Positions 21,093 through 58,214 of a DNA stretch of 64,000 nt are shown here, piece after piece (the stretch's first letter is position 1; every line of letters begins with the position of its first letter). The position numbers and the translations under genes are program-made. Where the stretch lies: the NCBI GenBank assembly GCA_016927595.1, contig JAFGMI010000042.1, forward strand, positions 83,901-147,900, given 5' to 3'. The stretch is from Melioribacteraceae bacterium (GTDB taxonomy: Bacteria > Bacteroidota > Ignavibacteria > Ignavibacteriales > Melioribacteraceae). The notes under the pieces were generated by a model. That model did no database searches and had not been told where the DNA came from. It saw only the letters and a list, made by a program, of their open reading frames with translations.

Positions 21093-21147
21093 TTAATTTT
21101 TGAGAAACTACAAAATTATTGATTAAAGTAAATTTTTTCAAACTAAT

Positions 21148-22380
21148 TTATTTCAGATAGAGCATCTTTCTTGTCAAATAATCAGATTCAGTGATGATAC
21201 TATAAAAGTATATGCCGGATGCTAAGTTTTTTGCAGAAAAACGCACTATATGGATTCCGGGATTCAATTCTCCGGAAAATAATTCCGAGACCTCGTTACC
21301 CAATACATCGGTTACAAGTATTCTTCCAAACTCCCTTCTGCCTACAGAAAATTTGATTTCCGTTGACGGATTAAATGGATTCGGGTAATTCTGATAAAGA
21401 GTTACTGTTTCAGGTATATGATCCGCCGATTCAACAAATGTGGGCACCTCAAATTCCAGATCAATGTGAACCGGAAGATGGTCCGATGCCAGGTAAAGAG
21501 CATTCAGGAAAGAGAGATCCGATAAATCAAACGGTGCATCATTTATAGACTTATTGAAATGCTGACCATCATTCCCGGGTGTTGTGTATGAATTGTTACT
21601 ATATGTTATACCGCCGCTGTCAATTACAGCCTGCGACAACATAATAAAATCGAACCTGTCATCCATGCCTCCGGTAGAACCGCCGTCATTGTTCGGTGTT
21701 GCACCCGTACGGGTAGACTGCGTATGTATATCAGCATAATTCTGTGAATCATGCCATGAACCCGTCCGCAGCGGATCGATGAAATACCCCGAGGTTGACT
21801 GATCAACTAACCGCTGATAAGCAGTTTCTGAAGAGGTATAAAGATTAAAATCACCGCAGACAATATAATTTACACCATCCCGGAAGGTATCCGTTTTTAA
21901 CCGCAGCTGGTTTATTTCATTGAACCTTTGCTGACTGTCACTGTTGGTATTACCGGCTTTTAAATGTACAACGAATACAATTAGAGTATCATTCGTGATA
22001 TTGTGCTTTAAGGTATATTGCGGAATATCTCTCAGGACGGTCGGCAGGTAATCAAACTTTAATACTGTAAACAGAGAGTCTTTAAAGTACAAGCCGTTAT
22101 CAATATCAGTCGAAGGATTATTTCTGAAATAGCCTGCTCTGTATTCTTCACCGAGAACATTTTCGATAAACTGTGTTACGCCGTTAGTTGTTGTCATTTC
22201 CTGAAAAGCCAGAATGTCCGGATCTATTTCGTCAATTATTTTTCTGAAACTATCTTCGCGGTCAGCTCCTGAATTTGTAGGATAACGTAAGAGGTTATAG
22301 CTCATGAAACGCACTTTTTCCTGAGCGAAGTGAAATTGAAAGCTTAACAGCAGAATGAAGAGTATTATCTTTATTTTCAT
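21148..22380 (-). CDS. Secreted endonuclease/exonuclease/phosphatase family protein with T9SS C-terminal sorting domain
   Basis: 410 aa; signal peptide, EEP motifs (MSYNLLR, FQEM, VVHLKAG, GDFNLY, DDRFDFI, SDHLPV), CTD 'LYQNYPNPFNPSTEIKFSV...SGIYFYSI...KMLYLK'. Confidence 0.9.
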   Translation of the reverse strand: MKIKIILFILLLSFQFHFAQEKVRFMSYNLLRYPTNSGADREDSFRKIIDEIDPDILAFQEMTTTNGVTQFIENVLGEEYRAGYFRNNPSTDIDNGLYFKDSLFTVLKFDYLPTVLRDIPQYTLKHNITNDTLIVFVVHLKAGNTNSDSQQRFNEINQLRLKTDTFRDGVNYIVCGDFNLYTSSETAYQRLVDQSTSGYFIDPLRTGSWHDSQNYADIHTQSTRTGATPNNDGGSTGGMDDRFDFIMLSQAVIDSGGITYSNNSYTTPGNDGQHFNKSINDAPFDLSDLSFLNALYLASDHLPVHIDLEFEVPTFVESADHIPETVTLYQNYPNPFNPSTEIKFSVGRREFGRILVTDVLGNEVSELFSGELNPGIHIVRFSAKNLASGIYFYSIITESDYLTRKMLYLK

Positions 22381-22385
22381 ATTTA

Positions 22386-23468
22386 CTAATCGATTTCTGT
22401 GGATAGAATAAATCTAAGGATGCGGTTATTACCGGTATCCAGCACATAAAGAGTTTTATCATGATATGCCACCGCATGCGGTCTGCTCATAATTTCACTG
22501 CCACCGAACGATTCCATCTCATCCCCGAAATTGTTAAACTTAAATACACTGTCCTTAGCGGCGTCTGCAACATAAATATTATCGAAAATATCAAGAGCAG
22601 TGCCTTCAGGCTGAGAGAATTTGTTTAGTGACATAAGCTCATTTGTGAACGGTGAGAGCCTGCTTATGTATCCAGAAAATAACGGTGTCTGAATATACTG
22701 CAGATACTGGACTTTAAAACTGTTTTCCCCTTTCAGAGTTGTAATAATATCGAGACTTATCCGATTGAACGAAGTAAGCGATGATAATATATTTGCTGAA
22801 ACAACTCCCGAGCCCAGCGGTTCAATCATAGGCACACGACCGATGAGAGTATCCCTCTCAACCCCACGTCTTTCATAGTTGGAAAAGATAAGTATTGAAT
22901 TATCGGGATCGACAGGACTTGAATTAACAGTGCCTGTTCTGGAGATATAAAACATATTATTGTAGAAAACGCATGCTCCCGTATACTTTCTCCCAGGTCT
23001 GTCGAAGTCATATGCCGTTTTAGGCAGTAGTCTTTTTGCAGGTGCTGAGGAAAAATCGTGTCCGCCCTCGAAGAGGTTTATCTTAAACACTGCACTGTAT
23101 GTATTTGAAATTCCATTAATCGTGGTATCGAATTCTGCGCACACAATCAAGTTCAGTTTATAATCCTGGGCAAGTGCAACAGGTCGCTTTATACTTCTGC
23201 TCCCTTGAATTCTTCCCGAGATATCCATCATTACGATACGGTCGTTATCGGTATCGGCGATGTAGAGCAGCGGTTCCCTGCCTACAATCATATCCTGAGG
23301 ATAATTAAAGCCCGCCCAAACAGGATACTGCTGGATATAAAGCGTATCACCTATAATCTGATTTGCCGGATCCGATATTGTATTATCGGGAGCATCAAAT
23401 TTATCTGTGCAAGAGATAATGGTTGCTGCAGAGAATATTACTAATAATATTTTTAAAACTTTCGACAT
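22386..23468 (-). CDS. NHL-repeat-like putative lipoprotein
   Basis: 360 aa; lipobox-like 'SAATIISCTDKF', repeats 'LLYIADTDNDRIVMMD', 'NIYVADAAKDSVFKFN', 'TLYVLDTGNNRILRF'. Confidence 0.75.
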   Translation of the reverse strand: MSKVLKILLVIFSAATIISCTDKFDAPDNTISDPANQIIGDTLYIQQYPVWAGFNYPQDMIVGREPLLYIADTDNDRIVMMDISGRIQGSRSIKRPVALAQDYKLNLIVCAEFDTTINGISNTYSAVFKINLFEGGHDFSSAPAKRLLPKTAYDFDRPGRKYTGACVFYNNMFYISRTGTVNSSPVDPDNSILIFSNYERRGVERDTLIGRVPMIEPLGSGVVSANILSSLTSFNRISLDIITTLKGENSFKVQYLQYIQTPLFSGYISRLSPFTNELMSLNKFSQPEGTALDIFDNIYVADAAKDSVFKFNNFGDEMESFGGSEIMSRPHAVAYHDKTLYVLDTGNNRILRFILSTEID

Positions 23469-24445
23469 TAATAAAGTCCCAGTAATATAGAAAATCTGTG
23501 TGCTGAACCTAGCCGTTCAAAACCGGAATATGCATAGTCTACTGTTACATCCGCAATACTCAAAGGCACCCTGAATCCGGCACCAAAAGTAAAGTCCTGT
23601 TCATCTACATTCAGTTTATATCCGCCTCTCAGGAAAGCAAGACTGTTCCAGGAGTACTCAAAACCAAATGATACGTTTTCACTGTTATCATTGGGATGAT
23701 TCAATTGTGCCGATGCAGTCAAACGATGATTATTATTCTGTATAGGCTCGAATGCAAATCCTATTCTGAACATTGTGGGCGGAGAGAAAGACTGCCAATC
23801 AGATTTCTTTCTTCCTCCGAACAAAATTACATCACCGTCGGGAGCCAGTTCGTTGCCGAAATTAGTTATAGCTACAGCAAATCTTGATGAACCCAATCCA
23901 GTCCAGTAAAGAGTACCCAGGTCAATCATAATACCGCGCATTTTCAGTTTATCGAGAGTTTCTTCTATATATCTGATAGTGCCGCCGAAACTGAACTGTT
24001 CCGTCATTTTTCGGGAATAAGAAACCGAAATTGCAATATCACCAACGGAAAAGTACTCCCCGGTTCCGAAAGGCATAACTTCAGTCGTTACAGGCATATC
24101 ATCCATATGAAGCGAAATGAACGACACACCAACGACGTCGTTTGCAGACAGCCTGTAAGCTGCTCCCAGAAACTCGTGCTTAATATCAGCCACCCATTCG
24201 TTATGTGAGAACATAATTTCATTTCTGTTCATATAAGCCATACCTGCGGGATTCCAGTAAAGGGATGAAGCGTCATCAGCAATGGATATAAATGCATCAC
24301 CCATTGCAGCAGCTCTTCCCCCCACACCAATTTTAAGAAATTGAGCTGTGGAGATGCCCGCTCTTTGTCCACCTAAAGTCGGGAATAACTGAGCCTCAAT
24401 TTTAATCAAAGGCAGTAATAATATAATCGCAATCAGTTTTTTCAT
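23468..24445 (-). CDS. PorV/PorQ family outer-membrane protein (copy 1)
   Basis: 325 aa; 'STAQFLKIGVGGRAAAMGDAFISIADDASSLYWNPAGMA', C-terminal beta-barrel pattern 'FTFGAGFRVPLSIADVTVDYAYSGFERLGSAHRFSILLGLY'. Confidence 0.88.
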   Translation of the reverse strand: MKKLIAIILLLPLIKIEAQLFPTLGGQRAGISTAQFLKIGVGGRAAAMGDAFISIADDASSLYWNPAGMAYMNRNEIMFSHNEWVADIKHEFLGAAYRLSANDVVGVSFISLHMDDMPVTTEVMPFGTGEYFSVGDIAISVSYSRKMTEQFSFGGTIRYIEETLDKLKMRGIMIDLGTLYWTGLGSSRFAVAITNFGNELAPDGDVILFGGRKKSDWQSFSPPTMFRIGFAFEPIQNNNHRLTASAQLNHPNDNSENVSFGFEYSWNSLAFLRGGYKLNVDEQDFTFGAGFRVPLSIADVTVDYAYSGFERLGSAHRFSILLGLY

Positions 24446-24467
24446 TTATAAACTATTTTTTATTCAA

Positions 24468-27275
24468 TTAAAACCTGAGTCCCAATCCTACTTTCACGTT
24501 TCGTCTTGTTAAATACCTTGCAGGATTAAACGGGAAAGTGCTGATAGGCGCCTGCAGATCGGGATATAAAGGATCGTTCCACGACGACGGTGTAGGATCG
24601 CCGTATTCATATGCCTCACCTGTGACAGGATTAATTATCGCTGAATTTTTTGTGTCAAGCAGGTTGTTTACCTCGATAAAGAGTGTAAGATCGAGTGCAC
24701 CCAGGTTTATACCTTTTTCAAAGTTAAGATCTATCCAGAACCAGTCGTCACCGATTTCATTGTACCGGTTATTGCGGATATATTCATATTCCGGTCTGCC
24801 GTCGGTATTATAACTGCCCGTGAAAACGGCAGGAGTATATCTTTTACCGGATTGAAAAAAGAATCTCAGATAAATATTATAATCGTCAAGAATGCCGGCG
24901 CCGAAATTAAACAACGGCTCGCCTGCGGGTACGAAAAAATTAAGCATCGATGTTATTGTAAATGGTCTGTCCCATGAAACAAATTCTTCTTTAATCGATT
25001 CATCAAGGTCACCTCTAAGTATCAGTACTCCCTCATCGGCAGAAGAACTTTTTCCTGTCACTATTGCATATGAAAATGTAAACATACCTGAGAACCATTT
25101 CCCGATTCGTTTTTTGTATTCAAGCTCAAGACCTCTTGACCGGGCATAATCCAGATTTGCATAAGTTATAAAGGATTGAGTTGCAAAACGTGCCGACTGG
25201 ATATTTGCCGTTCTGGTTCGTACATAATCGAATATATCTTTGTAATATGCGGTCACTGTTAAAACATCGTTTTGAGAGAATTGAGTTTTCAGACCCAGTT
25301 CGTATGCAACGGTAGTTTCAGGATTAAGATTCGGGTTTCCAAACCGTTGAAAAGACGACTGAGCATTCGTGGGACTTAGTTTGGCATAAACAAATTGAGG
25401 ACGGGGCCATTTATTGAAATGTCCGTAAGAAAAGAATAAAATCTGATTATCCGTAACCGGATGAGAAATACCGAGCCTGGGACTTAACCTCGCTTTAAAC
25501 CTTCTGTCACCAAACCATGGGAATGATTCATTTTTATATCTTTCTCTTGTTTCGTCGGGTATTGTCACAACATCCGGATTATTGACTGCATCATCAACAT
25601 ATTTACCCGGGAACCAGTAATCGAGACGCATTCCGAAATTAAGTATCATACCGCTGAAATTAATATTATCCTGAGCATAAAATGAACCACGCGCAGGATA
25701 TACTTTATAAATATCGTTATTCAGTCCCAGCTCACCTATCCATGGTCTGTAAAGATCTATTACCTGCATTTCCTGGAACACTAAATTAAAACCTGCTTTA
25801 AATTTATTTTTCTCGTCAAAGAAACTAGTCACATCGCCCTTTAACGAAAATTCTTCTATGTAATGATCGCGCCATGTTGATGGATTACCTACATCCCAGA
25901 ACCCATCACCCGGTATCACGCGAATTGTATCACCGTCGGTGTTGAAATACTCGAGTGGAAACGTAACAATATCTTTTCTCTCTTCGTACTCCGACCAGTG
26001 TTTTCCATTGGCATCAGCACGCAGATTTGAGAAGTAATGATTGATCTTAAATTCATAGAATGTCTTTGAGTTGAGTGTATGAGTCCAGCTTAACGAACTA
26101 TATTTATTATTATGAGTGAAAGTATTCGCATTATCAAGAATATTCTGAAAGTCGTACTGATAACCCGGACTCGGTTCAACGTATTCCAGATTAGCCTGCA
26201 ACGATTGGGAATTCTGGTTTATATTAACCGATTGGTTATAGGAATAAACAAGTTTCATGGTAGGACTAATACTGTATGTAAGCTTACCCAGCCAGAACCA
26301 GCTGTTTTCTGCTCTGGGAGCAAAACGCGTTCCATAAAATGTTGATGAATAGAGTTGTTTTGCTGTCGGCTTATAATGTCCCTGTGTAATGCCGTCACTA
26401 AGTCCGGCATAAAAACTTCCGAAGAAACTTATATCGCCCGGGAGATCCAGCCCAAGCATAGGTAAAAGGCTCGATGTAATAGGTTCAGGACCCGACAGAT
26501 TAGCTTCAACGATATCAAGGTTAAAAACAAACGGCGATGATTTGTCACCTAGATTATCACGTTTATACGAAATGTAACCTGCATAGTTTTGTCTTCCTTC
26601 CCTAGTCCTTACGTTTACAATTCCGGATGTAGCCTGTCCGAACTCTGCATTAAAACCGCCGGTAATTACCTCAACTTCTTCAATTGCATTAGAGCTTAGC
26701 TGCAGACCGAAACCCGTACCTGCCAAGGGATCCTGAACAGATACACCATCCAGTAAAAATGCGTTTTCATACGATCTGCCTCCCCTGATATGTATAGCAT
26801 TATCATCCTGTACAACACCAGCCTGCTGAGTTACAAGATCGGTGATATCTTCAACTATTGCCAGTTCGATATCTTCCTTTGATATTGTCCTTTTACTCTG
26901 AGTCTCCTCAACATCTATCAGGGGTTTATCACCTACAACTACCACATCCTTATCCAGAGTGAGAGAGGATTCTTCCATCTCAACATCTAACTTAAGAGTT
27001 CGGTTAGCCTGTATTTCAATTCCGGTGTACTGCCTGGTTTTATAACCGATGAATGTAACCTCGACTGTATAGATTCCCGGATTAATATTTTCAATTTTAT
27101 AGTTACCGTCATAATCCGAAGCGGCACCGTAATACGTGCCTTTTAGAATTACGTTTACACCGGGCAGAGCTTGTTTAAACTCATTATCGGTAATTACGCC
27201 TTCAAGACTCCCTTTCTGCTGGGCAGTTATACAGGTGGTGAAAATTAATAATATCGGAAGAATCAGTTTCTTCAT
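24468..27275 (-). CDS. TonB-dependent receptor with N-terminal carboxypeptidase-regulatory-like domain (copy 1)
   Basis: 935 aa; 'GSLEGVITDNEFKQALPGVNVILKGTYYGAASDYDGNYKIENINPGIYTVEVTFIGYKT', plug 'IHIRGGRSYENAFLLDGVSVQDP', terminal 'KVGLGLRF'. Confidence 0.92.
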   Translation of the reverse strand: MKKLILPILLIFTTCITAQQKGSLEGVITDNEFKQALPGVNVILKGTYYGAASDYDGNYKIENINPGIYTVEVTFIGYKTRQYTGIEIQANRTLKLDVEMEESSLTLDKDVVVVGDKPLIDVEETQSKRTISKEDIELAIVEDITDLVTQQAGVVQDDNAIHIRGGRSYENAFLLDGVSVQDPLAGTGFGLQLSSNAIEEVEVITGGFNAEFGQATSGIVNVRTREGRQNYAGYISYKRDNLGDKSSPFVFNLDIVEANLSGPEPITSSLLPMLGLDLPGDISFFGSFYAGLSDGITQGHYKPTAKQLYSSTFYGTRFAPRAENSWFWLGKLTYSISPTMKLVYSYNQSVNINQNSQSLQANLEYVEPSPGYQYDFQNILDNANTFTHNNKYSSLSWTHTLNSKTFYEFKINHYFSNLRADANGKHWSEYEERKDIVTFPLEYFNTDGDTIRVIPGDGFWDVGNPSTWRDHYIEEFSLKGDVTSFFDEKNKFKAGFNLVFQEMQVIDLYRPWIGELGLNNDIYKVYPARGSFYAQDNINFSGMILNFGMRLDYWFPGKYVDDAVNNPDVVTIPDETRERYKNESFPWFGDRRFKARLSPRLGISHPVTDNQILFFSYGHFNKWPRPQFVYAKLSPTNAQSSFQRFGNPNLNPETTVAYELGLKTQFSQNDVLTVTAYYKDIFDYVRTRTANIQSARFATQSFITYANLDYARSRGLELEYKKRIGKWFSGMFTFSYAIVTGKSSSADEGVLILRGDLDESIKEEFVSWDRPFTITSMLNFFVPAGEPLFNFGAGILDDYNIYLRFFFQSGKRYTPAVFTGSYNTDGRPEYEYIRNNRYNEIGDDWFWIDLNFEKGINLGALDLTLFIEVNNLLDTKNSAIINPVTGEAYEYGDPTPSSWNDPLYPDLQAPISTFPFNPARYLTRRNVKVGLGLRF

Positions 27276-28810
27276 AATCCCAAACCAAATTCATCGATGA
27301 ATATTTTATCGAGTAGTTTCAAGACGCCACCCTTTATCCCGTCGCACTTATGCAAAGGCATTCCTATGAAAACAAGATTATCATCATTATTCTTCAAGCC
27401 TATTATATCGTTGTCTGAAACCTGCGGACTGATAAGATGATAAAGTGCCGATGCGCTTGTCTGCGAAGGGACAAAAGTCCTTACAATATATACAGGCTCG
27501 TTCGTTTTAAGAGCCGGATACAAATTATAATTATTATCCGGTACGATATCCGCACCGGTTATTACGGATGTGATAAATTTCGTTTCAATCGAGTCAATCG
27601 GAAGAAATCCCTGAAGCAGATCAAGATCAATCGATCTGGGCATAAGCAGAGAGAATGCAATCTTGCCGCCGCTGTTCAAATAATTCTGTATTGAAGTCGA
27701 TGCAAGATCGAGGTCGGGTGAATTATCGGTATACCAGAAAATTCCATCGTAAAGCTTAATCGTCTCAGAAAATGTAATGTTTCTGAACGGTACCGGGTTA
27801 CCGATTAAATCCCATACATCGTATTTATCGTACATACTGTAATTGTTAAGGCTGTCGAATTTTTCTTTATAAAAGCTTTTAGAGTTATCATTAATCACGT
27901 AATTATCAATTATCAGAATTTTACCTCTCGGTTTTTTAACATACCAGTGACCGGATGTATCGGGTAAAGAAATAAAATTGGTCCTGGCACCTGAAATATC
28001 TTCAGCCTGAACAAAGAACCTGTTGTCGCTATCAAATTTAAGTCCGTTCAATTTCGAGTCGGCAATAAAATTTTCATTCCCGTTCAACAATATTTCCATT
28101 TGAGGATTTTCCGTGTCGAACTGATCCGTGCGTAAAGTAACAAGTCTGATTGTTCCGTCAATTGATACGAAGCTGCTTGTATCATTAACAGCAATATTAA
28201 TTTTTGAAATAGACTCATCGCCATCTATATCCGAAGCATTCCATCTGAAGGTCATAATAGGGAATGATGTGTCCGGCAGAACAGTAAGTTCGTTCCACTC
28301 GATTTCCGGTTTCGAATTCTTTATCGGAAATTGCTGCGAAGCCGGAGACGGATCGATATCACCAATATCAATAAACTCCTCACCATCATCATAAGTTGCA
28401 TTATTATTTACATCATTAAATGGTTCGGGACCCAGATCAATGCCGTTTCTATCTATATTGCTATCATATATCCCATTAGAATTATTATCTACAGCCATTA
28501 TATAAAAAACATAATCCGTATCATTGGCGCCGATTCGAAGAGCAAATTCCATGCTGTTAAGACCGGTAAATTCCCAGTCCGATCCGTTCCATGAGTAATA
28601 GTATCCCACAACTAATCCATCCGGATCATCACCCTGCCAGTGAAGTTCTATGCGGCTTGGCTGCTGGCTGATAACATCGTCTGGATAAATAAACAGATTA
28701 GTTTCCGGCGGCTGATTCTCAAGTTTATTATCAGTCAGTTTTTCCGTACAGTACCAGAACCCGAAAAGCACCGGGACGATCAGTAATATTTCAATTAACT
28801 TTTTAAACAA
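27272..28810 (-). CDS. Putative lipoprotein with Ca-binding-like Asp/Asn loops
   Basis: 512 aa; 'LIVPVLFGFWYC' lipobox-like; 'DNNSNGIYDSNIDRNGID', 'DVNNNATYDDGEEFID'; 4-nt overlap with TonB receptor gene. Confidence 0.65.
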   Translation of the reverse strand: MFKKLIEILLIVPVLFGFWYCTEKLTDNKLENQPPETNLFIYPDDVISQQPSRIELHWQGDDPDGLVVGYYYSWNGSDWEFTGLNSMEFALRIGANDTDYVFYIMAVDNNSNGIYDSNIDRNGIDLGPEPFNDVNNNATYDDGEEFIDIGDIDPSPASQQFPIKNSKPEIEWNELTVLPDTSFPIMTFRWNASDIDGDESISKINIAVNDTSSFVSIDGTIRLVTLRTDQFDTENPQMEILLNGNENFIADSKLNGLKFDSDNRFFVQAEDISGARTNFISLPDTSGHWYVKKPRGKILIIDNYVINDNSKSFYKEKFDSLNNYSMYDKYDVWDLIGNPVPFRNITFSETIKLYDGIFWYTDNSPDLDLASTSIQNYLNSGGKIAFSLLMPRSIDLDLLQGFLPIDSIETKFITSVITGADIVPDNNYNLYPALKTNEPVYIVRTFVPSQTSASALYHLISPQVSDNDIIGLKNNDDNLVFIGMPLHKCDGIKGGVLKLLDKIFIDEFGLGL

Positions 28811-28849
28811 ATTCTTCTCTGCATCACTTAAAAGGTAAATTTATAATTA

Positions 28850-30943
28850 TTACTTAATCAGCATCATTTTTCTAACCGAATTAAATTCTCCGGCATCGAT
28901 TGAATAAAAATATAATCCGGATGATAATCCACTTGCATTGAATTTCACTTTATGATAACCGGCATTTCTGGTCTCATCGATTAACTTTGCGATTTCCTGT
29001 CCCAGTATATTAAAAATCCGGATTCTCACTTCAGCGGTTTTAGGCAGCGCAAATTCAATAACCGTTGAAGGATTAAAAGGATTGGGATAATTCTGATTCA
29101 AAGCAAAATCAGCGGGAATATCTGAATCGTCAACAGAAACAACCGGCGGGAAAACAAAGTCATCATTATTTCGCGGAATCAGTTTATAATTATTGAATGA
29201 ATAGTACATAACGCCGGTAATTTCTTCTATTTCCGTGCCTGCATCAAGAAATACCAGCGTAGTGTCATCAATTAGCAGCGGATCCCATAAATTATGATAT
29301 TTATGGTCACCGTCCTGAAGTTCAACTCTTGTATCCCCGCTGCCGTCATTCACCAGTATTTCACCATAATTACTGCTTCCGTCGGCATTATAATTTGAAA
29401 CCTCAGCATCAACATATTTCACCAGAACACCTTCCCATTGTTCAGCATTAATACTTCCATTCGGGAGAAAATCTACCGACCCGGTTTGTACAACTTCAGC
29501 CTCAGGCAGTTCATTACCGGAGCTGACAACAGATGCCTGAGAAGGCTGATTTATATCTTCCAGTTCTGTAAAGTCAAAGTATTCTGCAACCGTACCGGTT
29601 ACGGTAACTAAGTCGCCTTTCCTGAATTTTAAGACTTCGGTACCGAACAGACTTATACCGCTCCAAGGTCCGCCCTCTTCATCCTGAATATAGACTGTGT
29701 TCCCGAGATCACTCGTATCAGCTGTTACAATACCGGAAACCGTAACTTCATAACCTTGCAGCGAACTCATTCCGCTACCAAAGGGACTATATTGTATATC
29801 CTTTATATCCGGAGAACTTGTTTTAGCGAAAAAGAAAAGTTTACCCGCAACTGTATCGGCGGGTTCCACCGTTATATTGCCGAGGTCATCTTGAGCGGTA
29901 AGGTAATAATCAATTATCACGTCATCCTGAAAAACGGCAGGTATAGTTGCCGAGTAAACCGAATCGCCCGAAGTATTCATCTGAACATGATTAAGCGAAC
30001 CGCCGTCAACTCTGTAATGCAGATCCGCTCTCGCTACCGTACCATCGGCATCATAGATTTTGCTGGTAATTTCAACATCAGTATCAGGAAGGGCGATTGC
30101 AGTATTTCTATGAATAGAGGAGATTGTCGGAGGTGCGGCACCAACTTTAATATCACCCGGGTACAGTGGAACTATATAATATGTATCCTCCCTTGTTGTC
30201 AGCGCACCGCGAATATATTCAATAGCAGAGCCATCAACGGGAGGCTCATAATCGGTTAAACCCGTAAGCCTGTTTCCATCTGAAGCAACTTTAAAGAACG
30301 ATGATTGTGTATAAACCATAAGGTGATTGCCGTTACCGTCATTCAGGCGGAAATATCCATTGGTAACATTTCTGTCACTCGTTGTAAAATTTTTCAGTAT
30401 AACGTACATCCCTTCGTATTTTTCACCTTCGGGATTCTTTTCTCCGCCGTTCATCAGTGCATCCATGCTTACTTCAACCGGATCAGGTCTTTTGGGAAGC
30501 TGACTGATAACCTCAACCGGGGCAATCGGATCTAACAACACAAAGAACTCAGTCGTTGATATGTATTCACTAACAACACCTGTAACCCTGATTACCTGGG
30601 CTGTATCCACGAGATCGAAGAATGTGTTCTGATTGACTCCCGTTGTATCGTCCTGCAGCACGAGCATTCCGCCCCAGGGCTGACCGTCTACATCCTGCAT
30701 ATAAACCGACCATCTGCCACCCGCCCAAATTATCGGACGCCTGTCATTTTGCGCATCGACTACTGGTGCAACCGTAACAACGCCTTCGATGGTAAGTGTA
30801 TCGCCGTCTCTTGGCGAGGCTACATCCCCTGTGTTAGCGATATCATCAATAAACTGTATATCGCTTATTTTAACTGTAGGGTAAGTTTGCGCATAGAATG
30901 ATGAACAGATAAAAAGCAATGTAAGTAGTAAACACTTTTTCAT
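28850..30943 (-). CDS. Secreted protein with OB-fold-like domains and T9SS C-terminal sorting domain
   Basis: 697 aa; signal peptide; repeated 'GDTLTIEGVVTVAP...VYMQDVDGQPWGGMLVLQD' / 'GYEVTVSGIVTADTSDLGNTVYIQDEEGGPWSGISLFG'; CTD 'LNQNYPNPFNPSTVIEFALP...KMMLIK'. Confidence 0.8.
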   Translation of the reverse strand: MKKCLLLTLLFICSSFYAQTYPTVKISDIQFIDDIANTGDVASPRDGDTLTIEGVVTVAPVVDAQNDRRPIIWAGGRWSVYMQDVDGQPWGGMLVLQDDTTGVNQNTFFDLVDTAQVIRVTGVVSEYISTTEFFVLLDPIAPVEVISQLPKRPDPVEVSMDALMNGGEKNPEGEKYEGMYVILKNFTTSDRNVTNGYFRLNDGNGNHLMVYTQSSFFKVASDGNRLTGLTDYEPPVDGSAIEYIRGALTTREDTYYIVPLYPGDIKVGAAPPTISSIHRNTAIALPDTDVEITSKIYDADGTVARADLHYRVDGGSLNHVQMNTSGDSVYSATIPAVFQDDVIIDYYLTAQDDLGNITVEPADTVAGKLFFFAKTSSPDIKDIQYSPFGSGMSSLQGYEVTVSGIVTADTSDLGNTVYIQDEEGGPWSGISLFGTEVLKFRKGDLVTVTGTVAEYFDFTELEDINQPSQASVVSSGNELPEAEVVQTGSVDFLPNGSINAEQWEGVLVKYVDAEVSNYNADGSSNYGEILVNDGSGDTRVELQDGDHKYHNLWDPLLIDDTTLVFLDAGTEIEEITGVMYYSFNNYKLIPRNNDDFVFPPVVSVDDSDIPADFALNQNYPNPFNPSTVIEFALPKTAEVRIRIFNILGQEIAKLIDETRNAGYHKVKFNASGLSSGLYFYSIDAGEFNSVRKMMLIK

Positions 30944-30955
30944 ATTAATTATCCC

Positions 30956-33040
30956 TTACTTAATTACTAAAAATTTTCCAATCTTTATATTATCCGATCG
31001 AAGATCTTTAACTGAAAACAAATACAGTCCCGTTGCAACAGCCTGGTCATTTTCCGTAACTAGATCCCAGGCATGTTCGCCGCCTGACATTTTCTGCGAA
31101 CCATCGGCATAAGTTTCAAACCAACGCACGTCTGATCCGTTGCTGAGCTGGTTGTGGTGTATTCGTTTTACTATATCGCCCGAAAGAGTATAAATTGTTA
31201 TCTCACATTCTTCGGGCAGATTATAAAAATAAATTTTCCTTAAACGTTCCGAACTTCCGTCCCAGTAAGCATTGCCGTAATAGGGATTCGGATATACCCC
31301 GACTTTAGATTCTTCATCATTAACGGCAGGAGTACCCGGAAGAATTCTTTGTGCAGATGCAAGCTTGGCTGATTCCAAACTTTCCAATTTGTTTTCAGGA
31401 TCACCGGTATCAAAAGCAGTCACGGAGTAAACATACTGCCATCCGTTCAGAAGATTATTTATTTCGAATTTATACTTATACTCAATATCATCATCAGCAA
31501 ATTTAACAGGCTGTTCAAGTTCAATAAAAGAGAAACCCGTATTGAACCCAAGATCATTATCCTTCCTGTCAAATTCTGCGATCAGTGTCATGGAAGCAAG
31601 AACGTCCTGGGCTTCAGACAAATCGAATCCTGCATTTGTACGATAAATACGATAACCCTCAAAATCCTTTTTAACGGAAATAGGGTCGATTGAATCTTCG
31701 GCACGGGCGTCCCAATAGACTGTAACTTTCTGCGATTCGGGTACAACTTTAACTATAGGTGTAAGGGGCGGACTCGGAAGAATATATCTTGTGATTGAGC
31801 CATCACCGTCCAAATCTTCCCCCGTATCGAGTACACCGTTCCCGTTTCTGTCCTCACCATGATAAGCTCTTAATGCCCAGCTTGCATTTCTATAAAGATT
31901 TTCCTTTTGTGCTTCGGTATCGCTTGCAGGATTTTCGAAACCTGCTTTTTTCGCGGCAACAATTGCAAATGTAATATTAATGGAATCACCCGGTGCAAGC
32001 GTTTCGAAATCACCTGCAGAAATAAGCATTGATCTGTTACTGGCACCTCTGAGAGATGAAGGGTTTACACCGGAATTATATTTATTATTGCCTCCGAAAT
32101 AGCCCTGGAGTTTTCTGTATCTGTCAACATCATTCTGAGGCATAAAGAAATTCGGGTCATCCGTGTTCCTGAACTGCCAGCTTGTAAATGCGACAGTATC
32201 GAATTCAGTATCCGAACCAAGATACTGAATACCAATATAACTGTCGGTAAAGCCGATATCGCCCGCAGCATCAAATTCGTAAGCAATAAAGAGAGAATCG
32301 TCGTACCCGTTGCCGCTTTTATTGAAAAACGCACCGCCGCTTCTGGGTGAAGTAACATTTGTATTACGGACGACAGTGTCCGTCCATAATCCTACGTAAA
32401 TGCTGTCGATATATTTATCCGAAACATTTTTAATCCAGTAGTTCATAATCACAAAATAATTTGCGAATGAAAAATTCCAGGCATATGTTTCCTGGTGAAC
32501 GCTAAGACCGAGCGGTTTATGATCGACGATCAGTTCACCGTTACTGAAAACAAGACTTGTATCGGAAAAGTCAATTACAAAATCCTGGTGAGATACCGCA
32601 TCGGGTTTAAAGAATCTTGATTCGGTAAGAGAAGATTTTTCCACAACTACATCAGCAGGTTTATTAGTAAATTCGAACCCGCCGCCTCTTGTAGATATCG
32701 AGGAAGCATCTACAGCTCCTGTTGTAACGAAAGGACCGGTTTTGTTACTTCCCGTTGCATCGGTGCTCAAAAACGCACCGATCCATAAACCACCGTCAAA
32801 AATATGTTCAATACCGCTTCCGAGCGGATATTCGCATGAAGGCTGGTCGGGCCATTTTGAGAAACCATGACCATAGGTACCAAAGTTCGTTACCGTTAAA
32901 CCGATATTTCCAACATTTGTAAATTTCGAGTCGTCGTCTTTGAGCAGTTTTCCTAGTCTGTATTCTTTATCATCTGAATCGAATGTAAAGGCAGCTATCA
33001 GAAATATTGTCAGTAATAATAGAAAGTTATAATGTCTCAT
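30956..33040 (-). CDS. Large secreted protein with FnIII-like segment and non-canonical C-terminal domain
   Basis: 694 aa; 'KVTVYWDARAEDSIDPISVKKDFEGYRIYRT', Ca loop 'DRNGNGVLDTGEDLDGDGS', C-terminus 'GLYLFSVKDLRSDNIKIGKFLVIK'. Confidence 0.75.
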   Translation of the reverse strand: MRHYNFLLLLTIFLIAAFTFDSDDKEYRLGKLLKDDDSKFTNVGNIGLTVTNFGTYGHGFSKWPDQPSCEYPLGSGIEHIFDGGLWIGAFLSTDATGSNKTGPFVTTGAVDASSISTRGGGFEFTNKPADVVVEKSSLTESRFFKPDAVSHQDFVIDFSDTSLVFSNGELIVDHKPLGLSVHQETYAWNFSFANYFVIMNYWIKNVSDKYIDSIYVGLWTDTVVRNTNVTSPRSGGAFFNKSGNGYDDSLFIAYEFDAAGDIGFTDSYIGIQYLGSDTEFDTVAFTSWQFRNTDDPNFFMPQNDVDRYRKLQGYFGGNNKYNSGVNPSSLRGASNRSMLISAGDFETLAPGDSINITFAIVAAKKAGFENPASDTEAQKENLYRNASWALRAYHGEDRNGNGVLDTGEDLDGDGSITRYILPSPPLTPIVKVVPESQKVTVYWDARAEDSIDPISVKKDFEGYRIYRTNAGFDLSEAQDVLASMTLIAEFDRKDNDLGFNTGFSFIELEQPVKFADDDIEYKYKFEINNLLNGWQYVYSVTAFDTGDPENKLESLESAKLASAQRILPGTPAVNDEESKVGVYPNPYYGNAYWDGSSERLRKIYFYNLPEECEITIYTLSGDIVKRIHHNQLSNGSDVRWFETYADGSQKMSGGEHAWDLVTENDQAVATGLYLFSVKDLRSDNIKIGKFLVIK

Positions 33041-33132: not shown

Positions 33133-33165
33133 CATAAAAAAACCCGTCTTTAAACAAAGACGGGT
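33133..33165 (-). terminator. Rho-independent terminator of the 2-oxoacid:ferredoxin oxidoreductase operon
   Basis: Minus-strand ACCCGTCTTT-gttt-AAAGACGGGT followed by TTTTTTT. Confidence 0.85.
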
Positions 33166-33185
33166 CTTTAAATCATGAAGAATAA

Positions 33186-45215: not shown

Positions 45216-47501
45216 TTACTTAAGAAACAACATCTTTCTTACGATGTTCACATTACCGGTACTTAAACGATATAAATAGATTCCCGATGACAATCCTGAA
45301 CCATTATACTCTACCGAATGTGAACCCGCTTTCATCAAGCCATTTATAATTGTGGTCACCTCTTCTCCTAAGGTGTTATAAACCGTTAATATAACTTTCT
45401 GTGCGGATGGGATATAGAAACTTATCGTTGTTGACGGATTAAACGGGTTGGGGTAATTTTGTTCAAGCAGATAATTGTCTGCCCCAGAACTTGTTTTATC
45501 TACATCAGAAATGATATTTGACATACTAACCGTAAACTGAAATTCATCATCAACACTCAGCGGTTTTAAAGTATTTATAAAAATAGTATCTCCTTCTGCG
45601 GGCAATAAAATACCGCCATCAGGCAGGGTTGAAATCAGCTGCGCATGCGTACTGAAGCTGCTTGTTTTATACTCCTCCGGAGTCATGAATACTATTTTTT
45701 CGCCAGCATCCCATTGCAGGTTTTTAGTATTTGTATTTTCAAAAATTACCATTTCGATTCTGCTGTCGTCTGTAATATCTCTGGCAGTGAACGGTATAAT
45801 AATCTCTTTTTTGTTCGATGTGCTTAACACTGTATCAAGCGGATTTGAATACGACCCGTCACTCAGTGTATCCGGATTCCCCCATATCAGAGCAATATCT
45901 ATCGGCGAAATAGCCGGTGAGATTGTTGGATTCTGAAGTTCAAATGTAATGTTCGTTCCTGAGGAATTAATAAATTCAAACGTTTTGAAATTTAAAGCCA
46001 GGTTAAACTCCGGGATAAGTTCAACCGATATCCCGTCGAATTCTTCAGTGATATACGAAACACCGGAACCGAAATTAATGGGAAATCCATCAATTTTTAA
46101 TTCATCCGAGCTCAGACTTCTCACATACATTGTTAAATAATCCCCGGATGAATTGCCGAAGTAAATTGAATACGTATCTTCAACTATCAGAGAGGAATCG
46201 ACAACATGAATCACAAAATCCGAAGTGGTATTACCGGCGGAATGTTCGAGCAGAGACTTATCAAGAAAGCCCGATGTATATTTCAGGTTTACTCTTTTTC
46301 CTATTATCTCATAATCTTCATTGTATTGTCCCCAGCTTGACCAAACGACCAATATCTCGTCCGGGTTCGGCACAATGAAATCGGGTTCCCACTGATAATT
46401 ATCGGTATAATCATTAATTTTTCTTTCGAGCGATAACGGCTTGCCTTTATCACTTACCAGTTTGTAGAACACTCCTTCTCTGCTGCCGTCCAGTTCCCAG
46501 TTAGACCACAGAACCGCGAGTTTACCGTCATCAATATATTCAACTTTAGGCAGCCACTGGTAGAATTTCGTTGATGAATTGATCAGTATTTCTTCCCCGA
46601 CCTTCTCAAAACTGTTATTAAAATTCTGCATATAAATTCCGCCGTCGTATCCGTCCTGTTCCCAGCTGCACCACACTATGCTGAAATTATCCTGAGTATC
46701 AACAGCAATATCACCGAACCATTGGTAGTCCTCGGTGCAGGAATTTACCTGGAATTCGTCTTTAATTATAATTCCATCCTTATCAAATACTTTAGCAAAA
46801 ATATCATAACCTTGTGATGATGGAATATATGATTCCCAGGCTGCAATAAAGCTACCGTCACTCAGATATTTTATAACAGGTCGTGCCTGGCTGTATTCGG
46901 TCTGTGTATTAATTAAAAAATTATCACCAGTTTTACTACCATTTAAATCTGTAAACTGCTGTGCGAATATTCCCCTGTCGCTGCCATCCTGATACCACGA
47001 TTCAAAAGCAATAATAAATTTCTCATCCGGGTGCATATCAATTGCGGGCATAGTCTGAGTGTTCGGCTGAAAACTGTTGACCAGGAACTCATTCTTGTAA
47101 ACATTCCCGTTATTAAAAATTTTTGCTTTTATATCGTAGGAATTCCCGAGATTTCTATTATTGAACGAAGCCCATGAAACTACAAAAAAACCATCCAATC
47201 CCGACGCTACCGAGGGAAATTTCTGATCACCAGCTGTTGAATCATTTACGAGCGTTTCAGGTCCGATTTTATTATCAGCAGAATCAAACAACTGCATAAA
47301 AATGTCTCCTTGAGAATTTGAATCGAGCTGATCAACAGATTTCCAAACTACAACATAATCGCCGTTTGTATTAATTCTTGAGATTACCGGATTTCGCTGT
47401 TCTCCTCTCAGGTTGGAATTAATTAGAAACTCATCCTGAGCAGAAAGACTGAGTGATGTAATAAAAAAGCCGATTATTGTTAAAATTACATTATGCTTCA
47501 T
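45216..47501 (-). CDS. Secreted seven-repeat (propeller-like) protein with T9SS C-terminal sorting domain
   Basis: 761 aa; signal peptide; about seven ~55-aa repeats ('EFLIN....P.........VVWSSW..DG..I'); CTD 'LEQNYPNPFNPSTTISFYIP...KMLFLK'. Confidence 0.85.
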   Translation of the reverse strand: MKHNVILTIIGFFITSLSLSAQDEFLINSNLRGEQRNPVISRINTNGDYVVVWKSVDQLDSNSQGDIFMQLFDSADNKIGPETLVNDSTAGDQKFPSVASGLDGFFVVSWASFNNRNLGNSYDIKAKIFNNGNVYKNEFLVNSFQPNTQTMPAIDMHPDEKFIIAFESWYQDGSDRGIFAQQFTDLNGSKTGDNFLINTQTEYSQARPVIKYLSDGSFIAAWESYIPSSQGYDIFAKVFDKDGIIIKDEFQVNSCTEDYQWFGDIAVDTQDNFSIVWCSWEQDGYDGGIYMQNFNNSFEKVGEEILINSSTKFYQWLPKVEYIDDGKLAVLWSNWELDGSREGVFYKLVSDKGKPLSLERKINDYTDNYQWEPDFIVPNPDEILVVWSSWGQYNEDYEIIGKRVNLKYTSGFLDKSLLEHSAGNTTSDFVIHVVDSSLIVEDTYSIYFGNSSGDYLTMYVRSLSSDELKIDGFPINFGSGVSYITEEFDGISVELIPEFNLALNFKTFEFINSSGTNITFELQNPTISPAISPIDIALIWGNPDTLSDGSYSNPLDTVLSTSNKKEIIIPFTARDITDDSRIEMVIFENTNTKNLQWDAGEKIVFMTPEEYKTSSFSTHAQLISTLPDGGILLPAEGDTIFINTLKPLSVDDEFQFTVSMSNIISDVDKTSSGADNYLLEQNYPNPFNPSTTISFYIPSAQKVILTVYNTLGEEVTTIINGLMKAGSHSVEYNGSGLSSGIYLYRLSTGNVNIVRKMLFLK

Positions 47502-47507
47502 GTCGCT

Positions 47508-48164
47508 CTACTTCATTTGAAAATCCATAAGAGGGTATTTATTATTGTCAGAGAGCTGGTAATGCCACCATTCAGCAATATAATAACTTAATCCTCCCAC
47601 ATTCAGCATAATACTTTTCAGGTACTCTCTGTTATTATACACAATAGGATGGAGAAGGTGTTTGGGGTAGTCGTGACCGGCGGCATCAGAAAAGTCATCA
47701 AACCCGGTCGGCATGAAAAGTTCCTGCCCGGTAGATATGTCGATCAGAGTTACGTCAACTGCGCCTCCCCTGTTATGTCCCGATCCGTTATCGGGATTCG
47801 CCACGAAAGTCGGATCAGGAAATATATCGAACATCACATATTGGACTGAACGCGGACGGTACCCGTCCCATATTTTTAATCCGAGTCCTTCCGGATAATC
47901 TGAACCATTAAAAGATCTTACGTTTCGAAGACTATCCTGAACCAGTTTTAACCTGTATGCCAGTTCTTTAAGCATGTAGCATTCATTAGCTGTATATAAC
48001 TTCTGCTGGTCGAAAACATTGTCGGTAGTTGCATACTTAAGATCGACTGCTATATCGGGTATTATATCCTTGATTCTTACGAATTCATCGTAACTTGTCT
48101 GAGCGCCTGTAATATGATTTAGACAAAAGAATAAAACTAATATGAATGCTGATAAGGTTCTCAT
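47508..48164 (-). CDS. Exported M15-family D-Ala-D-Ala dipeptidase (VanX-like)
   Basis: 218 aa; signal peptide; 'DLKYATTDNVF', 'DGYRPRSVQ', 'SGHNRGGAVDVTL', 'EWWHYQL'. Confidence 0.92.
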   Translation of the reverse strand: MRTLSAFILVLFFCLNHITGAQTSYDEFVRIKDIIPDIAVDLKYATTDNVFDQQKLYTANECYMLKELAYRLKLVQDSLRNVRSFNGSDYPEGLGLKIWDGYRPRSVQYVMFDIFPDPTFVANPDNGSGHNRGGAVDVTLIDISTGQELFMPTGFDDFSDAAGHDYPKHLLHPIVYNNREYLKSIMLNVGGLSYYIAEWWHYQLSDNNKYPLMDFQMK

Positions 48165-48227
48165 TGTAAAAATTTACCACCTTATTAAAAACGATAGCCC
48201 CGATAACGGGACTATTTTAATAATATC

Positions 48228-49265
48228 CTAGAAAGTTAATCCGATATCAAAGTACTGAATATTTTTCAATAATCCGAAATCACCGTAAGCATAATTAACA
48301 ACGACTTTAAGTCCCGGACTAATTTCATAATTCAAGCCTGCGCCGGCTGTGAGTCCCTGTTCACTGTCAGGCATAAACAAAGTTTTATAACCTCCCCTGA
48401 TAAAGAACATATCGTAGAAGTTAAATTCAACACCTGTGTTCACGTACTCATTATTATCGTTAGGATGGACTGCATCGATTGCGACTTTAATCGTTGTAAA
48501 TCGTGATTCATACACATCCATTGCCAGCCCGACCTTAAAATTGAGCGGAAGATCATTTACTTCCATCCGGTAATTAAAGGGAATATTATTGGGACCTGAT
48601 TCAGGGTCATCATTAGGATCGATATTTCCCTGTATGTCACGTCCGTCAAGTTTCATTTTCGTTCCGAAGTTAGAAATGCTTGCTCCGATTACAAGATCAT
48701 TAAAGGGAGTTATATAGTAAGTACCGACATCCAATGCAAATCCCGAAGCACTTGAGTTCCAGATAGATTCACGAATAAATTTCGCATGGAATCCAATCGA
48801 GAATCTGTCGGTAAGACTTCGGGCAAATCCTATTCCGAGAGAAAGTGAGGAAGCATCCCAGGTTCGTCCGTCGCCGTCCGGGAAATCGAAAGATCTTACT
48901 TTTTCCTTCGGGGTCGACATTGATGTAAAAGTCATAAACATAGTGCCCAGTCCCGGTACATTAATTGCACCCGCAGCATAATCGTAATTTATATCTGCGA
49001 TCCACTCGGTATGATTGAATGCAACCTGACCGATGCCTTTGCTTACAGCGATACCTGCAGGATTCCAATAAGTTGCATAAATATCGTCGCTCACTGCAGT
49101 ATAAGCACTTCCCATTGCCACGGCACGCGCACCGGCTCCAATTTTCAGAAATGGCGCTACGGTTGTACCGACCCTGCTTATATCTCTGAATATTTGTGCA
49201 TTAATTTCATATGAAGTGAATTGAATTATTATCAAAGAAACTATAATAAAAACAACTTTTCGCAT
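48228..49265 (-). CDS. PorV/PorQ family outer-membrane protein (copy 2)
   Basis: 345 aa; 'TVAPFLKIGAGARAVAMGSAYTAVSDDIYATYWNPAGIA', C-terminal barrel 'VVVNYAYGDFGLLKNIQYFDIGLTF'. Confidence 0.88.
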   Translation of the reverse strand: MRKVVFIIVSLIIIQFTSYEINAQIFRDISRVGTTVAPFLKIGAGARAVAMGSAYTAVSDDIYATYWNPAGIAVSKGIGQVAFNHTEWIADINYDYAAGAINVPGLGTMFMTFTSMSTPKEKVRSFDFPDGDGRTWDASSLSLGIGFARSLTDRFSIGFHAKFIRESIWNSSASGFALDVGTYYITPFNDLVIGASISNFGTKMKLDGRDIQGNIDPNDDPESGPNNIPFNYRMEVNDLPLNFKVGLAMDVYESRFTTIKVAIDAVHPNDNNEYVNTGVEFNFYDMFFIRGGYKTLFMPDSEQGLTAGAGLNYEISPGLKVVVNYAYGDFGLLKNIQYFDIGLTF

Positions 49266-49328
49266 TTTTTACTCCAATAATATAATTGAAGACTGATCAA
49301 TAATAACAGAATCAGTTCGATTAACATT

Positions 49329-52300
49329 CTATTTTATAATTGCAAAACGTCCGATCTTTTCGCCAACATCTGGTATATCTACGTGGTAAATATATACCCC
49401 GTATGACACACGCATACCTTCCGAACTCAATAAATCCCATCTGGCTATACTTGTATTATCGTCCTTCTCAATTACATCAACTAATTCACCGGTAAGAGTG
49501 AATATTCTTATTGTACATTGAGGCGGTAAATTCCAGAACTGCAGTTCTCTTTCACCTCTTTTTGTTAACGTTCTGCCGGGATTTTCCGAAATCGAATAAG
49601 CTACATAAGGATTCGGGATAACAAAGATATTATTAACATTCTCTTTTGCCTGTGCAGCGCTGAACTCTATTTCCTTCGTTTCAAATAAAAATGTGTCTTC
49701 ATCTGAAAACGGTTTGCTGGTAATCAATTGATATACATCGCCTTCCTGAGGCAGAACCTGGTTAGAGATATTTTCATCCAGTGTAAAATTAATCTGGTAC
49801 GTTGTTGTTGCGTTTGTTGACCCCTGCGGTTGAAGGACTATTCCCTCGCCCCAGTCCCATCTTCCGTTGTTTTTAATCGACTGCACGATGAATGCAGCTG
49901 GTTCCTCGTAGTAAGCTCCGCTTGCATCCCTTTCGATATACCATATTGTGAAGGGTGCATTAACCGGTCCGAGGAGAGTATTGAGAACATTGGCATGTGC
50001 CCACTCCCCGTTGTTGAGAGTATCGGTATCATTCCACCTTACTTCCCAGTCGGCACTAACACGCACTTTTTTACTGCCGATTACTGCCGGGTAAAGGACA
50101 TCACTTTTCACAGTGATTGCTGTATTGGTTGTAAATCTGGACTGCACTCTGTCAACATCAAGTTCAACATCTTTAACAAATACTCTTATTCCGTCGAAGA
50201 CAGGATTGCCGTCTTCCATATCATACAATTTGCTCTGATAAACCGGATAATACCTGTAATTAATCGTGTAAATATTTCTTTCCGGAAGACTGTTCGGATA
50301 ACGCCCTCCTATTCTTCCAAGTGTTGTATTTATTACATATTCGCTTTCAGGAACGAGATTATTTTCTGCATCATATAATTTTACGCTTTCAGGCACAATA
50401 TTTTTATGTCTCAAAGCAACCAGAACAGTATCTTTTGACGTGAATGAATAACTCACACCAGTGGAATCGAGCACGTTATAATATTCGCCGCCGTTAAAAT
50501 CAATTTTATAACTTTTGTTCATTACTGCTAATTTATCCAGCACTTTGAGATTAATCTGACCGGTTCCGTTACCGGATACATGAATTGGAGAGCCCTGATC
50601 GCCTGCTTCGGGATCAAGCACTCCTACGGATATAGGCCCGGGTGTGACTGACAATGTATTAACATCATAAATCAGCTCGCCAGTCTGCGGATCTTCCTGA
50701 ATTACTGATTGAGTTTCCGTAGGCGGCAGATCGTCAGTACCACGGTCATAAGCAACCAAAGCATAATAGTATGTAATACCATTGGTTACTGTGGAATCGA
50801 CATATTCGTGTATCAGACCAGTGTTCTTACCCAGATCGTACTTTATGCCTCTTCCCTCGTATTCAACTGCTGCAAGTCCCGAGTATTCATTCACAAGATC
50901 GAATTGGGCAGCTTTCCCGGTATTCTCATCAAACAGGGGTAATCCTAAGTAAGGGATGCCATTTGCATCAGTCACTTTATAAACATCCGAAAAATTATAA
51001 TCTCTGCTTCTGTATATTTTATATCCTTCAAAATCCTTCTGTGATGTAAGAGGATCGATTGATTCTTCAGATTTCGTATCCCAATACAAAGTTACCTTTC
51101 CATCGCCTGGTACAGCTGTAAGAGCAGGCTTTTCAGGCGGCTGGGCAAATCTGTAATCGGCTTCAAGAATCTGAACAGATGTCTTGGCATTCAACTGCAG
51201 ATCCCTTAAATCCTCGCCCATTAATATCGCCATCGAGAAGCGCTGAGCTTCACCTTTCTGAAGCATCATAGGTCCGGTTGAGAAACAGAACACATTATCT
51301 CCCGCTGTTCTGAGCAGAGGCTGTTCAGGATCTATTTCGGGCTTTGTAAACCACTGCCACATTCTTTCATCGTTTCTTGGCGTGTTGGATGCATCATTAT
51401 AATCAGCCGCAGTAAAACCGGTTAAACCCAGCTGGTCGGACTCTGAAATATCTCTGAATCCGAAATTTGGTTCAGAACCAGCCCATTTGTAACCAAGGTT
51501 CCATTCTTCTGTTAAAGTTCCTATTTCTTCATCATCAAAAAGACCGTTTGTATTCATGTCCAGATACCATGCCTGCGAAGGAAAACCATCGCCTTCACCA
51601 TAGTCTTTGCCCGGGTAATTTACTGATTCGGGTCCTATGCCGTCAATACCGATATCATGCTTGTTCACATCCCAGTCGCCGTCCTCGTCACCAGACCATC
51701 GTGGTTTAGGTTCGCCGAAAACAGCTTTGTACTTGTCGGGATCCTCAATACCTGTATTAACATCAGTTACAACACCATCGATAAAATTACCTTTTGAATT
51801 GAAAGGCGACTCATCATTAATACCGTCGTCATCGTTGTCCTGCATATCATGATCGAAGGAAGGTGATTCCAAAAATTTCCATCCGAAATAACCAGGTCTC
51901 CTAGCACCGTGACCCTTAAAGTCTTCATCCCACCCGAAAACCATACTTCTGGATCTCTGTTCAATACCTTCTGCCAGTTCACCTTTAGGGGGAATAAAAT
52001 TAGCCATATCATCGCGATAGTCATTTGCACCGCCGATGTGAGGGTCGCCGTACATGCCCATATAAAATTCGTGAAGGTCTTTATCGCTTGCATTGGTAAT
52101 CTGATATACCATAAAAATTATATCTTCGGCAAGCGGGTTATTGAATTGCAAAATTCTTACATCACCATCGATTCCGAGACCGCCTTTTGTAAGATCATTA
52201 AGGAATGGAATATACTGTCCGTAAAACTCATAATTCGTGTAATCATCGATTGCATAAAAGACCTCTTCATCGGGTGCGGTTGCCTGATCACCTAAAAAAG

Positions 52301-52865: not shown

Positions 52866-52888
52866 TATAATTCCCTATAAACTTTTCA

Positions 52889-55717: not shown

Positions 55718-55900
55718 TACTTCACCGTTGATATAATTTAAAAGTGTAAAGTTGTCATCAGTCATTAAATACACAAAAATAATAGTGTCTATTTACAAAA
55801 GCGGCTGTCCTAAAATTTCATCATATTATTATCAGGTAAAAGAATATTGCAGTATGATAAAACTTCTAAGACAGCCTCTAAAAATTTTAGAACAAAAACA

Positions 55901-57901: not shown

Positions 57902-58214
57902 CCTGCATCTCCTTTTATTGATTAATAATGAGTTGATTTTGTTTGAAATATTCATTTTGTAATTAGTTTCGGTAACCATAACAAATATAATTAGATTGAT
58001 AAAATAGTTAATACCGACAGCCAATTTTTGTTTTTAATTTAGATATGATAATTCAGTACCCGAAAACTGAGCTGAAAAATACCATTATTAAATCATTATG
58101 TCAATTTAAGTGTAAAATATTGTAAATTTATCTGCGCCGGTTTTATAAAGTAAATGTTTCTTAGATTTTAAATAAATTCTGAATAAATTCCACATTTTTA
58201 GAATTGGAGCCGTA

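Follow-up and report, generated by a model that had tools for sequence, protein, structure and literature searches.

Comparison of module A with known systems

Module A is a block of seven genes at 21148-33040 on the minus strand of a 64,000-nt stretch of DNA (the window; contig JAFGMI010000042.1 of assembly GCA_016927595.1) from a Melioribacteraceae bacterium. We suggest, with a probability that we put at about 0.55, that it is one of a family of outer-membrane uptake units, each comprising a TonB-dependent receptor, a large surface protein (BIG) and a barrel of the PorV family. In these units the PorV paralogue would retain BIG, giving a counterpart of SusC/SusD based on the type IX secretion system (T9SS).

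In SusC-SusD systems the gene for a TonB-dependent receptor adjoins one for a dedicated surface protein, and there are several copies per genome beside substrate-specific catabolic genes, as is the case for the trios of receptor, BIG and PorV genes described below. However SusD is a helical lipoprotein lid, while the surface protein of the trio has a beta-sandwich, FN3 domains and a T9SS-type C-terminal domain (CTD) and is accompanied by the PorV-family barrel; the trio lacks SusD and its receptor falls below the SusC/RagA cut-off. The PusCD proteins of Flavobacterium are SusCD-like complexes that with phosphodiesterases serve in acquisition of organic phosphate (PMC8115612), and resemble module A in being a receptor-based uptake locus with such enzymes, but PusCD includes SusD and the enzymes are periplasmic.

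In the T9SS attachment complex PorZ is held on PorQ and PorU on PorV (PMC10202324). Here too a CTD protein is paired with a PorV-family barrel, the PorU gene is directly upstream of porV, and the CTD of BIG gives a weak match to the C-terminus of PorZ. However BIG is neither a sortase nor PorZ, and there are numerous copies of it, each linked with a TonB receptor. PorP/SprF proteins are the shuttles of type B CTD proteins (PMC12618676, PMC9143113), and there are many such cognate gene pairs per genome, but the trio has a barrel of the PorV/PorQ family and includes a TonB receptor, and no Pfam match was found to the type B CTD (PF13585) on BIG or to the PorP/SprF family on the barrel. BamG, a FadL homologue, binds the surface protein BamH through its extracellular loops (PMC12578637), and is a barrel of FadL/PorV fold that holds a surface protein, but the pair belongs to the BAM complex and has no link to T9SS CTDs.

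A full-text search of the literature on T9SS, PorV, SusD and related terms gave no description of receptor-CTD-PorV trios. In the published annotation of the xylan locus of Rhodothermus marinus (Rmar_1070-1072) the gene for a TonB receptor is adjoined by those for two hypothetical proteins, the first with a CTD (PMC6987092). By this annotation the locus has the shape of a trio, and is from a cultured organism.

The gene block

The genome carrying the window is 3.85 Mb and from an Ignavibacteria-type bacterium. From 33040 down to 21148 there are seven open reading frames (ORFs) of 694, 697, 512, 935, 325, 360 and 410 aa, which we call BIG (gene 1), gene 2 (OB-fold), the lipoprotein (gene 3), the receptor, the PorV-like protein, NHL and EEP, with intergenic spacings in that order of 12, 39, -4, 22, -1 and 5 nt. 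A first-pass annotation had described a packed block of seven minus-strand genes, and the ORFs are where it placed them; profile searches also agree with its assignments of an OB-fold T9SS protein, a lipoprotein, a TonB receptor, a PorV/PorQ-like protein, an NHL lipoprotein and an EEP protein with a CTD.

BIG and its C-terminal domain

BIG (30956-33040) has no match in Pfam, and a sequence search of the PDB also gave none. The predicted model (pLDDT 82) has a beta-sandwich at the N-terminus and an Ig-like domain at the C-terminus, together with FN3-like domains, and a fold search with it finds beta-sandwich and FN3 tandems. A SusD-like fold was considered for BIG and is ruled out by this model.

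The block had been thought to encode two CTD-bearing proteins, gene 2 and EEP, but the number is three, as BIG by its sequence carries a third and divergent T9SS-type CTD (residues 573-694, 30956-31324) that is missed by the standard Pfam and TIGR models. Gene 2 (44.3 bits for PF18962, cut-off 27; 40.8 for TIGR04183, cut-off 23) and EEP (27.1 and 29.4 bits respectively) have type A CTDs, whereas BIG of module A matches neither model and some of its paralogues match weakly at 22-28 bits. The BIG pattern, PNPY ... F.NLP..C.I.IFT..GELV ... WDL ... G.YI..V ... GKFxIIK, differs from that of ordinary cargo CTDs, QNYPNPFNP ... SGVYFYKL ... KMMLVK. When models were made for each, BIG proteins scored 102-146 bits on the BIG-CTD model and 3-19 on the cargo model, and cargo proteins 111-144 on the cargo model and 3-29 on the BIG-CTD model, the own-class scores being from overlapping training and test sequences. 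On these scores the BIG-type CTD is a separate class. Conservation among module A loci is 0.73 for the BIG CTD, as against 0.58 for the rest of BIG and 0.59 for the gene 2 CTD.

A search for BIG-type CTDs in seven genomes (the window genome and six that were outside the training of the model) gave 63 strong matches, with a gap in the scores between 77 and 57 bits. A PorV-family gene is directly downstream of 52 of these, and a further six belong to copies of module A and share an operon with PorV, making 58 in all; two others are at contig ends. Ordinary CTDs do not have this association: of the 97 type A CTD matches in the window genome five precede a PorV gene, these being PorU and four BIG proteins, and none of the approximately 92 ordinary cargo CTDs has a PorV gene directly downstream. 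As PorV adjacency tracks the BIG-type CTD and not ordinary CTDs, the PorV paralogue of module A is most probably dedicated to BIG, and not to the two type A CTD proteins that it had been thought to serve. The CTD of BIG is then a candidate retention or targeting signal for its cognate PorV paralogue.

It could be argued that the paralogue acts as an additional shuttle of general use, by which the operon's ordinary CTD proteins are exported and for which BIG is just one more cargo, as PorV is the known shuttle for type A CTD cargo (PMC5562754, PMC12618676) and the operon has two such proteins. We think this improbable given the distribution of PorV genes just described, and also because PorV stays in the operon where EEP is absent, which is the case for most copies, or where gene 2 was not found. 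To our knowledge all type A cargo is handled by one canonical PorV in the species that have been studied, which also counts against a second general shuttle.

With regard to the PorV-like protein itself (23468-24445), it is a member of the PorV/PorQ family (NF033709, 237.7 bits for a curated cut-off of 90) but falls well short of the equivalog models for PorV (NF033710, 87 for a cut-off of 250), PorQ (NF033711, 88.2 for 220) and PorV2 (NF052325, 94.9 for 325), whereas the canonical PorV of the same genome scores 273 on NF033710. It is in a separate orthologue group, and module A proteins form a clade with support of 100/100 in a tree of PorV paralogues, which says nothing either way on a single clade for the trios. 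Its sole PDB match is PorV of the SprA translocon (6h3i, E 4.7e-19).

Module A had been proposed to be a self-contained export-and-uptake unit. The PorV paralogue is indeed linked with a TonB receptor and with a protein exported by the T9SS, but "self-contained" is not supported, because the SprA translocon is encoded elsewhere in the genome, as are PorU and the canonical PorV (at L118). In that region (L118:8202-16420) PorU, canonical PorV and an M6-like inactivated metalloprotease (NF052323) are in a row. At L130:10812-14325 a gene for a CTD protein with a match to the PorZ profile is directly upstream of two PorV-family genes, and these are probably the PorZ-PorQ pair of this genome.

Paralogous trios and the absence of SusD

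There are 16 strong to moderate PorV-family genes in the window genome. Ten trios, in addition to module A, have the genes for a TonB receptor, a BIG homologue and a PorV-family protein in that order, each directly behind the previous one, giving a total of about eleven. The distances of receptor, BIG and PorV are correlated across the 11 paralogous modules (r 0.61-0.86, p 0.0002).

The trios are mostly beside genes related to arabinose, beta-glucan, pectin, fucose or rhamnose. The neighbours include araBDA (L121); GH5, GH3, GH16 and a sodium:solute symporter (L119); pectate-lyase-like and pectinesterase genes and a TRAP binding protein (L124); fucose isomerase, FucU, an MFS protein and GH31 (L128); GH106, a PfkB kinase and RbsD (L123); and GHL10 (L122). 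One trio, module B, is in the window, also on the minus strand, and comprises a TonB receptor (52889-55774; 359 bits on a TonB-dependent receptor hidden Markov model, HMM), a BIG protein of 1178 aa with a BIG-type CTD (49329-52865; 129 bits on the BIG HMM and 133 on the CTD HMM) and a PorV-family barrel (48228-49265; 225 bits on the PorV HMM). Its surroundings (45216-58024) have genes for an M15 peptidase and a CTD protein after the trio and for an FG-GAP CTD protein before it, and no sugar genes.

SusD (PF07980) was not found anywhere in the window genome, although a control genome was positive, and there is thus no SusC-SusD pair of the sort that defines a polysaccharide utilisation locus (PUL). 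SusD is rare in the class, with PF07980 in 18 of 61 genomes, and in Melioribacter roseus it is reported for one Sus operon (PMC3534657). The first-pass annotation was correct that there is no SusD at module A, but this is not specific to the locus, and to conclude that module A is not a PUL for want of SusD is misleading, as the paralogous trios are in loci for sugar use and resemble PULs with a substitute for SusD. The receptor of module A (24468-27275; PF00593, PF07715) has a carboxypeptidase-regulatory-like N-terminal extension (PF13715), and at 77.5 bits on TIGR04056 (cut-off 368) scores well below the level for SusC/RagA. A domain search found no carbohydrate-active enzymes in module A.

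Conservation of a six-gene core

The PorV-like protein has clear orthologues in about 90 of the 149 genomes of the class that were sampled, with identity at least 63% within the order and falling to about 40%. In 52 of 66 class loci, from 13 families, there is a complete core of six genes (BIG, gene 2, lipoprotein, receptor, PorV-like and NHL) on one strand and in that order. Seven of the 14 exceptional loci are cut by contig borders, three are in family f19, in which gene 2 was not found at the threshold used but PorV is kept, and four are in family f8, with PorV alone at its usual place. The starts of core genes nearly overlap the preceding genes, with median gaps of -1 to 66 nt, and NHL adjoins PorV in 61 of the 66 loci. 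Outside the class the gene order is identical at ten loci, and at others it was recovered in part, the simple ORF caller having picked opposite frames there. We conclude that the six core genes are a conserved unit and, as judged by their collinearity, a predicted operon. Gene-neighbourhood analysis of the PorV homologue had been suggested as a check on the first-pass annotation and bears out the linkage, with the proviso that the seven-gene module is a conserved unit of six, with EEP outside it.

For the 57 class genomes covered by both orthologue searches, compared by hand, 28 have both BIG and PorV, 28 have neither, and one has an ambiguous fragment; the entries are not independent of one another, though presence changes within several families. 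The co-occurrence holds even in family f8, where the two genes are unlinked, with BIG and gene 2 in one place, PorV elsewhere, and the lipoprotein, receptor and NHL genes absent beside them. Unrelated genes can share operons, and one might see in module A only chance neighbours or co-regulation of unrelated envelope genes, but the order kept in 13 families and beyond, the recurrence in paralogues and the matched presence and absence contradict this, and we regard it as ruled out.

Of 14 genomes sampled from the family to which the window genome belongs, 8 lack the unit, which indicates an accessory function. This bears on another possibility, that BIG and PorV serve for structure or assembly, as BamG-BamH or PorZ-PorQ do, with the receptor as client or sensor and no role for BIG in uptake. 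The loop-mediated binding of BamH by BamG is a precedent (PMC12578637), and family f8 keeps BIG, gene 2 and PorV without the other core genes. However we consider this unlikely, as the paralogous trios are with substrate-specific catabolic genes, and the patchy presence of module A orthologues fits nutrition better than core assembly.

There are insertions in some loci. In family f3 (L065, L066, L067, L074 and L079) a secreted protein of 1043-1054 aa, by its sequence apparently a CTD-bearing protease of thermolysin-like type, is encoded between gene 2 and the lipoprotein, and at two loci (L055:11606-11980 and L060) there is a short ORF between receptor and PorV that is four-helix-bundle-like, of the 23S rRNA intervening-sequence type.

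The tail gene and the possible substrate

EEP (21148-22380) is a putative secreted nuclease or phosphodiesterase of the EEP superfamily (PF03372, 40.4 bits). It was considered as a core gene and rejected, as it is present in the window and in some relatives from few lineages. In other relatives, including the congener G058, the tail is a PLD-type nuclease (PF13091) with OB/DUF5689 and a CTD, for which the best NCBIfam match is the nuclease NucT, and one of these has an N-terminal stretch resembling the LTD domain. Outside the class a nucleotide pyrophosphatase/phosphodiesterase (NPP) occurs as tail. There are also EEP tails outside the class (L250-L256), to which the window EEP has no match at E 1e-3; a common ancestry was thus rejected, and EEP tails inside and outside the class were probably recruited separately. 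The window genome has three EEP genes in total. In family f7 (L100-L104, L108-L111) a protein of about 595 aa without a Pfam match is encoded between NHL and the PLD nuclease.

Because unrelated secreted phosphodiesterases have repeatedly been chosen as tail, the substrate may be a phosphodiester, for example nucleic acid. Gene 2 (28850-30943), a T9SS cargo protein with two OB-fold regions, is consistent with this. It matches the model for ExeM/NucH extracellular DNases (NF033681) over the first 130 positions only, with 56.3 bits and E 2.5e-15, which is below the cut-off of 300 and does not make it a full-length ExeM/NucH protein; its OB region resembles the N-domain of the EEP protein 9sf8 (E 5e-4) and weakly RPA. 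Module A thus probably serves in scavenging of nucleic acid or other phosphodiesters. It may be instead that this is an uptake system for phospholipid head groups, sugar phosphates or a glycan, as the EEP, PLD and NPP superfamilies all include lipid- or nucleotide-acting members and the SusCD-like complexes of Flavobacterium take organic phosphate with the aid of phosphodiesterases (PMC8115612). We find this rather doubtful in view of the NucT matches and the LTD-like stretch of the PLD tails and the DNase-like N-terminal region of gene 2.

Natural transformation was also considered as a role, since in Riemerella genes of SusC-like and receptor-like type influence the uptake of DNA (PMC8459023), but nothing at module A points to competence.

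Other genes and borders of the operon

Gene 3 (27272-28810, TTG start) encodes a lipoprotein in which Cys21 is invariant in the alignment; in fold searches its model (pLDDT 88) gives two Ig/FN3-like domains and a C-terminal GATase/flavodoxin-like fold. The NHL-repeat lipoprotein (22386-23468; PF01436) is the last gene of the conserved core. Upstream the operon is bordered by a hairpin-U terminator (33138-33169, minus strand; 14-bp stem, -18.8 kcal/mol, z -4.75) of 2-oxoacid:ferredoxin oxidoreductase genes, and downstream by a consensus match to a Bacteroidota-type promoter of atpD (21111-21142, minus strand; TTTG-N20-TAATTTTG). No match to this promoter consensus was found before gene 1 or within the block, and across 48 loci one is present before BIG in 3, with 0.8 expected, which is too few to be informative.

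Proposed function

We suggest that all T9SS proteins of the unit leave the cell by the shared translocon SprA. The CTD of BIG would be handed to the co-encoded PorV paralogue and stay uncleaved, by analogy with PorZ on PorQ, so that the barrel would be the membrane anchor of BIG, while gene 2 protein and the tail enzyme, with their type A CTDs, would use the housekeeping PorV and PorU. We infer a physical complex in which the pair of BIG and barrel is beside the receptor and would bind or present substrate, in the role that SusD has for SusC, or PusD in its system. Substrates of the paralogous copies would be glycans, and that of module A extracellular nucleic acid or other phosphodiesters, as indicated by the OB-fold protein and by secreted phosphodiesterases that differ in fold.

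There are several points that do not sit easily with this proposal. Three of the 63 strong BIG-type CTDs have no PorV neighbour (G000:C14:200507-200836, G106:C1:3171370-3174957). Several trios (L120, L127 and module B) are without clear sugar genes nearby, and in module A, unlike other trios, BIG is displaced five genes from PorV. The situation in family f8 would imply that BIG and PorV have a use without this receptor. With regard to substrate, the tail in many families is not a nuclease, being DUF1028, an S41 or S8 peptidase, or nothing, and the EEP, PLD and NPP superfamilies include enzymes that act on lipids.

Taken further, and here we are more tentative, Ignavibacteria and related early branches of Bacteroidota may have a widespread and undescribed class of outer-membrane nutrient importer, in which a T9SS protein, held uncleaved on its own PorV-family barrel by means of a new class of CTD, takes the place of the SusD lid, with module A, a conserved version, importing extracellular nucleic acid or its fragments. 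If so, this would explain the presence of 15 or more PorV genes in such genomes, and would be a T9SS-based answer to glycan uptake in members of the phylum that lack SusD. It would also mean that a class of CTD has been overlooked by tools for finding sorting domains and PULs, because these search for PF18962/TIGR04183 and for SusCD pairs. Finally, it would become directly testable whether shuttle barrels set the final place of T9SS cargo.

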